From NCBI GenBank assembly GCA_018389105.1, contig JACATO010000978.1, forward strand, positions 372,001 to 436,000: a DNA stretch of 64,000 nt, in the 5' to 3' direction. Position 1 is the stretch's first letter, and every line of letters begins with the position of its first letter. The notes beneath the pieces are model-generated. The model searched no databases. It saw only the letters and a list, made by a program, of their open reading frames with translations, and was not told where the DNA came from. This document shows, in pieces, positions 30,710 through 63,505 of the stretch. This stretch comes from Nautilus pompilius. Its lineage: Eukaryota > Mollusca > Cephalopoda > Nautilida > Nautilidae. The position numbers and the translations under genes were made by a program.

Positions 30710-30816
30710 CTAATTCTTGACTGTGTCTGAGCCATCTGCATCTTTGCCATTCTGTCCTACTTGGGTCAACCAGTCCACGAACTGAAGCATCTCGCTCTTA
30801 TCCAACACGCCGTCAA
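30710..30816 (-). CDS. Terminal exon of the same precursor: EF-hand second half, C-terminal tail and stop
   Basis: The acceptor reads TTCTTTTAAAACAG|TTGACG. Only one frame is open, and it begins with two bases (TT) that complete a split codon; this matches the single G left by the donor at 62941. The join gives V172, followed by D-G-V-L-D-K-S-E and the exiting helix M-L-Q-F-V-D-W-L-T-Q-V, then a polar tail ending in V-K-N and TAG. With residues 169-171 from the upstream exon the loop is D1-T-N3-V-D5-G6-V-L8-D9-K-S-E12, with all five canonical side-chain ligand positions and the obligate Gly6 present. Processing at KR151-152 would free a 54-residue single-EF-hand peptide. There is no KDEL-type retention signal, so it should be secreted with the peptides. 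On the transcript strand an ATTAAA sits at 30284-30279, about 430 nt past the stop, as a possible poly(A) signal. The splice join is inferred; an mRNA would settle it. Confidence 0.85.
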
Positions 30817-30901
30817 CTGTTTTAAAAGAAAGAGAAGAAACAAATAATATATTTTTATTTTCCTGTTTTTAAACGATGCGACAGACAGAATTATTTTTTT
30901 T

Positions 30902-31076
30902 AAAAGAGAGAGAGAGAGAGAGAGAGAGAGAGAGAGAGAGAGAGAGAGAGAGAGAGAGAGAGAGAGAGAGAGAGAGAGATATGAGAGAGAGAGAGATGGA
31001 GATGGAGAGAGATGGAGAGAGAGAGAGATGGAGATGGAGAGAGAGAGAGAGAGATGGAGAGAGATGGAGAGAGAGG
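30902..31076 (+). repeat. GA tract just upstream of the EF-hand exon
   Basis: About 175 bp of GA repeat with GATGGA units toward its right end. In the pre-mRNA of the minus-strand gene this is a CU-rich tract whose near end lies about 85 nt before the acceptor at 30817. Confidence 0.95.
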
Positions 31077-33278
31077 TTTCTGAAACATCACGGAAACCTA
31101 CCGAGACGAAGAAAGACGCCAGCTTGGTACCTTTTTTGGCTCACCACGTGTGAAAGCAGCGCCTGCCTTACAGACGGTTATCGTCGCCATCACGTAAGCC
31201 GATATCTAAGAAATGACTAGCAGGGAAATATCTGATTGATGGTCGTGTGAATATAATGGTAATTGTCTTAGAACTGTAAAACTATTTTTAGCATACGCGG
31301 TGGCATCCATGCACACGCTCATTAACCGGAAGATAGGCAAACAACGGCAGGATTAAATTTCCATCGTTCGGCAGACACGATTTATAACCGCGCAGTCTGA
31401 AATATGCAGCTTAAGGGTTAAAAAAAAACGGAATTGCAGATGGTAACAAAATATAAAAGCGTATAATTAATTAGAAGTCCTCGCTGCGGGATACAAGCCA
31501 GGCGGGACAGGTTAGAAATCCTTTGTTTCCGCTTTCCAATTCAACAGAGCAAAGAATTGTTTTTGCATTAAGCATATAATAATTCTTATAGGCTATTTGT
31601 ACTGCGATTTATTTATTTTAAGATTTGTTTGCCAATCTCATAATATAGATCTCGTCGGTGTTTTCGAACTACTTTTCTGGTCGGATGAGTCCCAAAACTA
31701 AATGCTGTTCGGTTCGATGGTGGTTAAATTTAACCGCTGAAAAGGCACGACTGGTTTCTAATTACATATTACAATTTGTTTTTCTTTGGTTTTACCGAAA
31801 CTGTCTTTAAAAATTCTTAAACAAGAACTCAGAAGTTCTACCTCTGCACGAATTAATGTCACCCCTCCCAGCTCCGATTTTCCACCTTTCTTTCCTTCCA
31901 ACTTGAAAGGTGAGGATTTATTCTAAATAGGCTACTTTCTACTGCTGTATATTCTTCTTATTATTAATCCAAATGAGTCAACTTTTGAAACGTAGTAAAA
32001 GAATCAGTCACACAAAGGCCCTAGTCCCTTATTTTTGCCTATTCGGGGGAACCTGGACTTGGCGATTGGTCAAAAGGAACGCGTAGCGACGACCAAGTGG
32101 ATGTGGCTTCGGAGCCTGGAAATTGACTGTGAAACTCCGGTTCTGGCGGCAGGAAAAGAATTGCTTAGAAATAGCTTCATTAATTAGTTTCTTCGCCCGC
32201 TAATGAGGAGAGGAAATGTACCCAGAACAAGCCATCTGGTAGCTAACTGTTTTTATGAACATATGCGAACAACAAATGTTTTGCCCCCGCCAATCAAGGT
32301 CTTCTCCGAAACTTTCATCTTTGGTCCGGCATTTAATCTTTATTGTATGTAGTAAAACAAAGACGGTCTCTGCACTGTACAATGATGTCCACAAATTAGG
32401 AATTAGCTACCGGAGCCAATACAGAAACTAAGCATCAGAATGTAGTCATCACTTGGATATTTTAAGTGGATTATTATTTAAAGAAGCCAGGTAGCAAAGC
32501 CAAGACGAGTGACGTCATAAGAGATTCGCTTTCCTGCCTAATTATCTCACCTGCGCTGTATTTATTTTGTTTCTTTCCTAATAGCAGTATCGAAATAAGC
32601 GAAGTGTCAATTAGATTGCAAGCCAGAGTTTCAGGTGTTCATCTTGTTCAGATTTCGAATCGGTTTAAAAGCCGATAAAGCGGTTCTTTGAGGTATTCTC
32701 ACTCGTGTCATCTTTGGTTTACCTTCATAAGTAGCAGTAAGTGTTCTCTACACTTGCAAATAGACTCAGACAAATGGAATCTGTGCCAGAGACTGTGTTA
32801 AAGCGTTTAGAAATAATACAAAAAGCGGTTGTTGCACGTACGTATCGTCCAAACCCCGAGAACGTAGTCGATAGTAATCATTTTTCGACAGAAGCCAAGA
32901 AAATACTGTCTTTCACGCTTCTTTCCTTTTCATGTGCGACGGTATGAAAAGCCACTGCAAGAATCTTTTCTTTTTCTTTTAGGATACATAAAGTCGAGAC
33001 AATAATCTCTTCATCGGTGCTGGTCATATACCATTTTCTAATTATCCGCTCGGCAGTCGGGTCTGGAGATATGTGTATGGGATTATCGTCATCGAGAAAC
33101 CAATCCTTGCTAAATCAGTGGGCCACCGACGAGCAATCTCTCTTTTTGGCCTTGGGCTTTATTATTACTATTACCATTTTCTTTCTGAGTCGTCACGTCT
33201 ACCAGCTGTCCTTTTAAACCCCGAAACGAATTAACAAAGATGTTGCATTGAAGGTAATGTACCTGGAACCTCTTGAAA

Positions 33279-61300: not shown

Positions 61301-62941
61301 GGGCAATATGTTATTCCTCAAATAACGAGCGTCGATAGGTCTCTTTCATTTGTCCTCAACCTTGACGAACGGTATGTGGAAAAAATCGTCAAACGCACGA
61401 GTTAATTGATTTCTTAGGAAAAAAATATTCTACCAATTTTAATTACCTTTATTTCAGCCTGTCATCAAACCAGGGAAAATTGTTTGATTTTTTTTTCGCT
61501 TAAGGTGATAAAAATTAGTTGGCTAGTAAGAGCCGAATGTCGTATCAACACCATTGTCGAGCGTTCATAAACAGGTGGGTCCATAGTCGATTGTTGTCAG
61601 AAGTTACGGGCACCATCGGTATGCAGTAGGGTTAATTATTTATCTCAAATTTACCGCGTTAAGACGCGATTATTGTAAAAGGTTTATTCAGTCTACTGAT
61701 GAGTTGTGTTCAGGAAAAGATACAATTACATTCATATACAATCCTTTTAAAAAAAACTTTAATAGGATGTATCATTAGTATTCAGCAAAGTCTGATTGAA
61801 AATATAATATATACCAATGGAAAATATTTAAAATCAAGAAAAGAAAAAGTAGTTTATCTAGACTGTAACGAAAGCAGATTTCTACAAATACTTCACTTTA
61901 GTTCCGAATGTGTGAGGTAATTTAATATCTATTGTTTATATTCTTTAGACACTACCAATCTGTAATTTTGTCAAGCTCTTTTAACTTTAAAATAAAAGGG
62001 CAATGACGGGGAGACTTGTGCAGCCTCGCAAAGCAGGATTTTGCGGAGCAATGACGCACATATGGCTGTTTGTGGTCTTCTTGACAGGAGAGCTTTGTCG
62101 TCTTCTACACGCCCTTCAAAGACTCTCGGTGAAACGTCGTGGTTTATAGCGCCAGTGCATTTTCACTATTCATTTGACCATCATCAATTTTTATCCTGTT
62201 TCGTTTCGCTTTAAAAATCTTTCTTTCTTTTTTTACATCCCAGCTCTTAACGATAGATTAATTTTGATAAACGGGAACATTAAAAAACCTTCAGTGGACC
62301 ACGGACGAAAGGAAGTCAAGTCTATCGGGGATTTGTATAAAGCAACAACAAACAGGTGACTGACCGAAATAATAAAACGTTCTGTGAGCAGCTTGATTTT
62401 AATACAAGGAGAGGACTCTCACCAAAGGGACTTTGCTGGCCATAGCTGTCTAACCAGCATTAACCTTTACTTTACTATATTAAAAGTTAATTTTTAGTAA
62501 GAAAGATTCTACTCTGAAAGGTTGGACTAGACGCGATGCTAGTCAGGATTCGGTTGACGAGACTTCGTGGGAACGACCGCCAAACAGGAACACTACGAAG
62601 GGGTTCGTGGGGCACCTTATCTAGTAAAAATCAAAAAGGGATGACACAAAGGTATTGCCTGTCGACACCTGGCCCGCCGTATCATTCACTGATCCAGCGA
62701 ACGAGTTATCTTTCTCGCGTACTCCTCAAAGAACGAAGTGGTGCGACCGAGTTGATTTACGATATTCTGAGCGCCACATGTCGTTTTCAGGCTCTCATGC
62801 ATTTCACCATAAATTTGTTTCTATGGGTATCGCTCTCTTACCTGGATGCCAATGAAGCGGAACGTTCCGCGCCGAAATTGAGGTTTTCCCGTCTATCAGA
62901 GATCGCAAGTGTCAAAGGAAATTATAAAGAGCTTTGCTTAC

Positions 62942-63455
62942 CGTTAGTATCAAACAGATTCATGACTCTTTCCACCAGAATCCCGTCGTCGATATTTGCC
63001 CGCTTTCCCCAAGTACTGAAGTTATTCCACGCATTCCTCTTCCCCCAAGACGAGAAAGATGACCAGTCCCTCTTCGTGTCGCCTCTTTTCCCCCAAGTAA
63101 TGAACTGTTTCCACTGCCTTTTGTCTACATCATCGTCAGCTCTTCTCTTCCCCAAGGCCGTCAGGACGGATCCGGGATTTTGCCATTTTTTACCCCAAGT
63201 GGTAAACTTATCCCACCTTTTGCCCCAGGTTGGGAAGTGGGACCAGCGTTTGCCCCAGGTTCCAAACTGTGACCATTGCCGCTTCACATCTGCCTCCCTG
63301 ACAGGTCCATCTTCATCCGGGGACAGGTCGCTAACCGATGGCTTCAGCCTGTCCCCCGGGTCGTTCAAATCTCTTTTATCTTCGGCGTTCAGGGATAACG
63401 ACTGGGACACAACCAGGAATATCACGACAGCAATATTGGCGAAGATGGAATTCAT
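62942..63455 (-). CDS. W-x5-W-amide (WWamide-like) neuropeptide precursor with EF-hand, first coding exon
   Basis: This exon encodes residues 1-171 of a secreted prepropeptide. The start chosen is the ATG at 63455; a further upstream in-frame ATG lies in the intron, before a TTCTTTTCAG acceptor. Residues 1-24 form a signal peptide (hydrophobic core IAVVIFLVV). KR occurs at 27-28, followed by an acidic spacer to KR58-59. Then come QWSQFGTW-GKR, WSHFPTW-GKR, WDKFTTW-GKK, WQNPGSVLTAL-GKR, an acidic spacer, QWKQFITW-GKR, a GDT spacer, DWSSFSSW-GKR and NAWNNFSTW-GKR (ending at 152). Each Gly predicts C-terminal amidation, and two N-terminal Gln predict pyroglutamate. The W-x5-W-amide spacing matches Achatina WWamide and is related to myoinhibitory peptide/allatostatin-B, so release from neurosecretory granules onto a GPCR is inferred. 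Residues 153-171 are the entering helix and loop positions 1-3 (D-T-N) of an EF-hand. The exon ends AACG|GTAAGC, phase 1, and joins the exon at 30816. The peptide precursor is certain; the exact receptor family is not. Confidence 0.92.
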
Positions 63456-63505
63456 TTTTAGATCTTTCTGTGTGAGGGGCCCCCACCGCTGGCGGGTTTT
63501 GCCTT
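63456..63505 (-). other. 5' UTR part of the neuropeptide exon with its splice acceptor
   Basis: Reading the minus strand, a pyrimidine run (about 63525 to 63508) ends in CAG at 63508-63506. I take 63505 as the first exonic base, leaving a 50-nt leader before the ATG at 63455. At least one more noncoding 5' exon must lie further right, either in 63.5-64 kb or beyond the window. I could not assign its donor with confidence. Confidence 0.7.

Follow-up and report, generated by a model that had tools for sequence, protein, structure and literature searches.

Does a neuropeptide precursor of Nautilus pompilius end in an EF-hand, half of which is encoded some 32 kb away from the peptides? The question is raised by a stretch of 64,000 nucleotides (assembly GCA_018389105.1, contig JACATO010000978.1, positions 372,001 to 436,000 of the forward strand), here called the window, in which a first-pass annotation had proposed an amidated W-x5-W neuropeptide precursor fused to a C-terminal EF-hand. 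We find this fusion well supported by the sequence, and we lean towards a gene of the MIP/WWamide/allatostatin-B type whose tail would bind calcium inside the secretory pathway.

The two exons and their join

The precursor gene lies on the minus strand, where two coding exons (63455-62942 and 30816-30710) join in phase and the joined frame translates into a protein of 206 residues. From the N-terminus this protein consists of a hydrophobic start, an acidic spacer, six W-x5-W-GK[KR] repeats with one degenerate repeat, and an acidic tail of 54 residues. Exon 1 is preceded by a 3' splice-site-like AG at 63507-63506, opens with the ATG at 63455 and, at 514 nt, is one base over. As the first-pass annotation had claimed, it stops inside an EF-hand loop, after D-T-N plus one base, with 62942 as its last base, a G, followed by the donor GTAAGC. 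The distant minus-strand exon of two bases followed by D-G-V-L-D-K-S-E was likewise confirmed; it starts at 30816, behind the acceptor CTTTTAAAACAG, the two bases being TT. The in-phase join was also borne out and gives a complete loop of 12 residues, DTNVDGVLDKSE, within the 206-residue frame. EF-hand loops carry acidic or polar residues at positions 1, 3 and 5, Gly at 6, a hydrophobic residue at 8 and Glu at 12, and all of these are present here. The observation is thus confirmed at the sequence level. When the precursor was used as a query against the 727.6-Mb assembly, the matches at E <= 10 were these two exons only (4 candidates scored).

How readily such a join could arise by chance was judged from every coding-strand AG in the 112,941 bases 3' of the donor (6347 sites), with strict completion of the loop defined as x-D-G-x-[ILV]-x3-E and a looser motif scored alongside. 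The strict loop was completed by a single site, 30816, which stands behind a pyrimidine tract and leads into an open frame, while the looser motif was found at two of the 6347. The opposite strand held one loose and no strict D-G site among 7363, and the 50 kb upstream gave 0/3244 and 0/3000. Across 100 random sequences of equal length with the same first-order base steps, loose sites averaged 0.77, or 0.09 when a tract and an open frame were also required; strict sites averaged 0.03, and with tract and open frame there were none. Looking backward from exon 2, the 83,184 bases examined hold 1899 GTR donors, of which two close a helix-E-like stretch with D-x-[DNS] in phase 1. One is 62942; the other, on the minus strand after LENLMQFMLDLD, is at position 77977 when counted beyond the window end (14 kb past it), and its stretch is also helix-E-like, with D-x-D in phase 1. 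By the strict pattern, no complete EF-hand loop was found in the window or in the 50 kb on either side.

The position of the intron was compared with that in EF-hand genes of the same genome, for which the EF-hand pair model PF13499 gave at least 124 matches (best 150 of 205 candidates scored). The matches that break off within the second loop, at profile positions 52-54, number ten, calmodulin-like or other EF-hand exons, and all were taken; in seven of these D-x-[DN] plus G is followed by a phase-1 donor, a proportion that describes the ten exons and cannot be extended to EF-hand genes as a whole. Some of the seven presumably encode calmodulin-like proteins. Three EF-hand ends on another contig, C973, have the same intron site within the loop. 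The 32-kb intron therefore occupies a position often used in the EF-hand genes of this genome, and this lends support to the gene model.

The Pfam model EF-hand_1 matches the whole protein at E = 0.001 (18.9 bits) and the tail alone at E = 0.00022 (21.0 bits), and the best match of the precursor in the PDB is neuronal calcium sensor 1 (E = 6.6e-5). The unspliced tail gave no EF-hand match in the Pfam search. A Pfam match to a dioxygenase N-terminus was set aside as chance or general EF-hand likeness. The tail has a pI of 4.05 and contains no cysteine. The proposal that it is freed as a 54-residue piece also stood: a predicted cut at KR 151-152 would leave a tail of exactly that length.

Peptides, family and other loci of the genome

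By hydropathy alone, residues 6-16 form a strong hydrophobic stretch, with a Kyte-Doolittle mean of 2.95. Five of the six W-x5-W repeats are followed by GKR and one by GKK, and the seventh repeat, WQNPGSVLTALGKR, is degenerate, being without the second Trp. Dibasic cutting and the amidation of GK[KR] ends follow known precursor biology. Six of the seven repeats fit a pattern of two Trp 4-7 residues apart with a C-terminal W-amide (G plus dibasic). For mollusc MIPs, the rule W(x4-7)W is given in the main text of PMC8514136, and four or five intervening residues in the text available of PMC5996578; the gene described here fits both. It also has, like the published N. pompilius MIP precursor of PMC8514136, six peptides that are all different. 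The abalone AST-B peptides NWNQFITWamide and QWSNFHSWamide, among those named in the accessible part of PMC6523705, resemble QWKQFITW and QWSQFGTW of the present gene. With abalone AST-B peptides as a genome query, two of four matches were this gene (E = 0.0025 and 0.003; 5 scored), and the other two were weak (both E = 0.34). No better candidate for a MIP orthologue was found in the genome by the precursor and abalone AST-B queries (4 and 5 candidates scored).

A second precursor with an EF-hand came from the pleurin family. The title of a 1998 paper on Helix lucorum places neuropeptides and an EF-hand in one gene (HCS2), and PMC8398477, in its available text, treats the Helix gene as the first pleurin. 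Slug pleurin peptides as a genome query gave a weak match (E = 1.6), at a locus that was then read as pleurin (Table 1). Its exon 1 encodes LCNHADA-IFFTDSKENDYPRL-GRR, then HQRIRQLFKFLDFD plus one base before the donor GTAAAA; after the 400-base intron, exon 2 continues with D-G-F-L-S-K-K-E, helix F and a stop. The predicted precursor passes the EF-hand_6 cut-off (27.6 bits vs 25) and falls under the cut-offs of four other EF-hand models, and an NCBIfam match (18.9 vs a cut-off of 120 bits) was taken as chance or general EF-hand likeness. Used in full as a genome query, it returned, besides two pieces of itself, one match at E = 3.9. Two unrelated precursors of this genome are thus predicted to end in one EF-hand.

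Further cases were sought with a donor pattern, which gave 41 places in the genome vs 62 for a reversed-pattern control and hence no enrichment. Thirty of the 41 places were read; besides the present gene, only the three on contig C973 looked like EF-hand ends. In view of a signal-peptide-like stretch, MAIISYLIPFTFILYSTLGQ, in one of these (L048), the C973 EF-hand proteins may be secreted. The pleurin donor differs and would be missed by the pattern, so other such precursors may exist. An APGW-amide pattern had one isolated match in the genome, where the longest frames were not precursor-like. A W-K-K-W pattern gave 1104 matches vs 556 in its control and has no bearing on the gene.

Several other observations are recorded for completeness. 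Among the other open frames of at least 90 codons in the window (63 listed), none appeared gene-like by eye alone, no family search having been made on them, and several are simple-repeat frames. Further long CT/AG repeat tracts of the window are at 42648-42685, 43335-43384 and 48921-49106. Elsewhere in the assembly, a 447-codon open frame with many PFDSIGGNSGFSSLGKR-like repeats (contig C1062, L022 1054-2397) resembles what we take to be precursors of the pedal-peptide/orcokinin type. Mollusc-type haemocyanin domains gave 14 matches in two sets of seven, on contigs C557 and C1362, which are either two genes or two haplotypes. One haemocyanin unit as query scored 565 and 561 bits against the single units 4yd9_C and 1js8_A, presumably squid and octopus haemocyanin, and 449 bits against 8tnv (CCHB-g), presumably gastropod; whole multi-unit chains, including gastropod ones, score higher in sum.

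Table 1. Positions of the precursor gene, its peptides and related loci (window numbering unless a contig is named)
Feature	Position	Strand	Remarks
Coding exon 1	62942..63455	minus	signal-peptide-like start, six W-x5-W-amide repeats, helix E, EF-loop residues 1-3 plus one base
Hydrophobic N-terminus, likely signal peptide	63387..63455	minus	residues 1 to ~23; by hydropathy
Peptide QWSQFGTW-amide	63255..63278	minus	then GKR
Peptide WSHFPTW-amide	63225..63245	minus	then GKR
Peptide WDKFTTW-amide	63195..63215	minus	then GKK
Degenerate repeat WQNPGSVLTAL-amide	63153..63185	minus	without second Trp; then GKR
Peptide QWKQFITW-amide	63093..63116	minus	W-x5-W repeat; cf. abalone AST-B NWNQFITWamide
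Peptide DWSSFSSW-amide	63045..63068	minus	then GKR
Peptide NAWNNFSTW-amide	63009..63035	minus	then GKR
First part of C-terminal tail	62942..62999	minus	ANIDDGILVERVMNLFDTN plus one base; helix E, loop residues 1-3
Phase-1 intron, 32,125 bases	30817..62941	minus	within EF-loop codon 4; donor GTAAGC, acceptor TTTCTTTTAAAACAG
CT-rich tract, possible splicing-control element	30905..31060	minus	~90 bases upstream of exon-2 acceptor; such tracts recur in window
Coding exon 2	30710..30816	minus	remainder of loop codon 4 and residues 5-12 of the loop, then helix F, a short tail and the stop codon
Pleurin gene	contig C1804, L021 912-1630	minus	one peptide copy, C-terminal single EF-hand, 400-base intron
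Three EF-hand exon places	contig C973, ~96-120 kb, L048, L049, L050		loops split at codon 4, phase 1

What the tail may do

On balance we favour, with somewhat more confidence than doubt, a MIP/WWamide/allatostatin-B precursor gene in which the EF-hand tail binds lumenal calcium and promotes folding, self-association and granule packing. Prohormone convertase and amidation would free six peptides acting on the MIP (sex peptide) receptor. The acidic tail would be loaded with calcium in the lumen of the Golgi or granule and, once loaded, would help the precursor to fold, to self-associate and to be packed into dense-core granules. After cleavage the tail would be released together with the peptides, as an acidic peptide that is inert or has weak activity. 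Granins, 7B2 and Cab45, which are acidic or EF-hand lumenal proteins linked to calcium-dependent sorting or aggregation, offer a possible parallel. Cytosolic calcium sensing is unlikely because the product is secreted, provided that the signal peptide works. For the tail, the most likely role is that of a lumenal module for calcium-dependent folding and granule packing, and granule sorting or condensation by calcium is reasonably inferred.

Several points weigh against this reading. The EF-hand_1 scores (18.9 and 21.0 bits) fall under the curated cut-off of 25.4 bits; a single EF-hand is often weak in calcium binding; and the sorting role is one that we infer. The intron site, moreover, is common to ordinary EF-hand genes and so is no sign of special kinship with pleurin. 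Such a kinship of the MIP and pleurin tails looked strong at first on account of the common intron, and was rejected in view of the same site in seven of the ten exons and the three C973 ends; in a single comparison the two tails resembled each other (E = 4e-5) no more closely than EF-hands ordinarily do. As the site is shared with those ordinary genes and ends, it cannot decide whether the two tails have a recent shared origin.

That the unrelated pleurin precursor bears a tail of this kind points to a carrier role independent of the peptide. A bolder and only tentative proposal is that the pair of exons for a single EF-hand forms a reusable carrier at the C-terminus. Unrelated amidated-peptide precursors of molluscs, those of MIP and pleurin at least, would have gained this carrier independently or retained it from an early duplication; it would serve as a built-in, calcium-triggered tag for granule packing and might be switched by splicing of the terminal exon.

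The main rival accepts the gene as real and makes the tail itself a co-released secreted factor or an extracellular calcium-dependent ligand, with no part in sorting. The tail would indeed be a discrete 54-residue product after KR 151-152, and the C973 exons, whose loops are split by an intron at the same site, may belong to genes for secreted proteins, one having a signal-peptide-like stretch. However, the tail is short and without cysteine, and nothing points to a receptor, for which no search was made; we regard this explanation as rather unlikely. Less probable again is that alternative splicing or end formation yields two precursors, with the EF-hand added in the spliced form only. Read-through past 62942 would give a protein of 177 residues ending NLFDTNGKQSSL (GKQSSL), with all six peptides and no EF-hand, so that the unspliced frame closes soon after the donor; within the intron there is an ATTAAA at 62403, and the CT-rich tract of ~155 bases stands ~90 bases upstream of the exon-2 acceptor. 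Yet CT/AG tracts are found repeatedly in the window, and the first 1.4 kb of the intron contains ATTAAA or AATAAA four times, with three further occurrences after the stop. That the join is spurious is very improbable: the 32-kb intron, the modest EF-hand score and the one similar donor 14 kb beyond the window would allow exon 1 to end on another 3' exon, or exon 2 to be the end of another EF-hand gene (a candidate we rejected, since the only other fitting donor is weaker and beyond the window and no whole strict-pattern loop lies in the window or 50 kb either side), but the two halves make up a single canonical loop in phase and 30816 is the sole acceptor giving a strict loop in 113 kb.

The sorting of small neuropeptide precursors into granules is still loosely defined. 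A precursor with a calcium-binding domain of its own would, if the favoured reading is true, give a precise and testable handle on calcium-dependent sorting, and a like tail on two unrelated precursors of one genome would make the feature noted in a snail in 1998 a possibly more general one. The gene also shows how a domain can escape notice when a short terminal exon follows a very long intron.

Comparison with known systems

Calmodulin-like EF-hand genes resemble the present gene in loop type and in an intron placed one base beyond loop residue 3 (seven of the ten exons), whereas they carry more than one EF-hand and here a single one stands behind neuropeptides. Nucleobindin-2/nesfatin, described in the available text of PMC9004410 as a secretory precursor with dibasic sites and EF-hand motifs, is alike in both respects; as far as that text goes, it differs in its leucine zipper, in its other peptides and in having no W-amide repeats. 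Profile searches gave no family match pointing to nucleobindin/nesfatin, the leucine zipper and the nesfatin peptides not having been looked for.

Closer is the pleurin of the same genome, which shares the hydrophobic start, the peptide, the C-terminal single EF-hand and the phase-1 intron in loop codon 4. It differs in its PRX-amide peptide, present in one copy next to the start, and in an intron of 400 bases as against 32 kb. The PRX-amide that marks pleurin/HCS2 is absent from the W-x5-W precursor, whose repeats end in W-amide and one in L-amide; the EF-hand in the precursor is common to both, the Helix side resting on the title of the 1998 paper. One intron at a like position and phase is reported for the pleurin genes of four trochozoans in PMC8557429, in the available text of which the word EF-hand does not occur.

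For the MIP family, the main text of PMC8514136, as distinct from its supplementary precursor figure, has no mention of an EF-hand or of calcium. The first-pass annotation had seen no precedent for such a fusion. For MIP this still stands, as no MIP precursor with an EF-hand was found in the open-access texts that were searched; for neuropeptide precursors at large it does not, in view of the 1998 Helix title and the pleurin of this genome. From these sources an EF-hand on a neuropeptide precursor looks to be already known, though little studied, from a land snail and with another neuropeptide, and the MIP version appears to be new.

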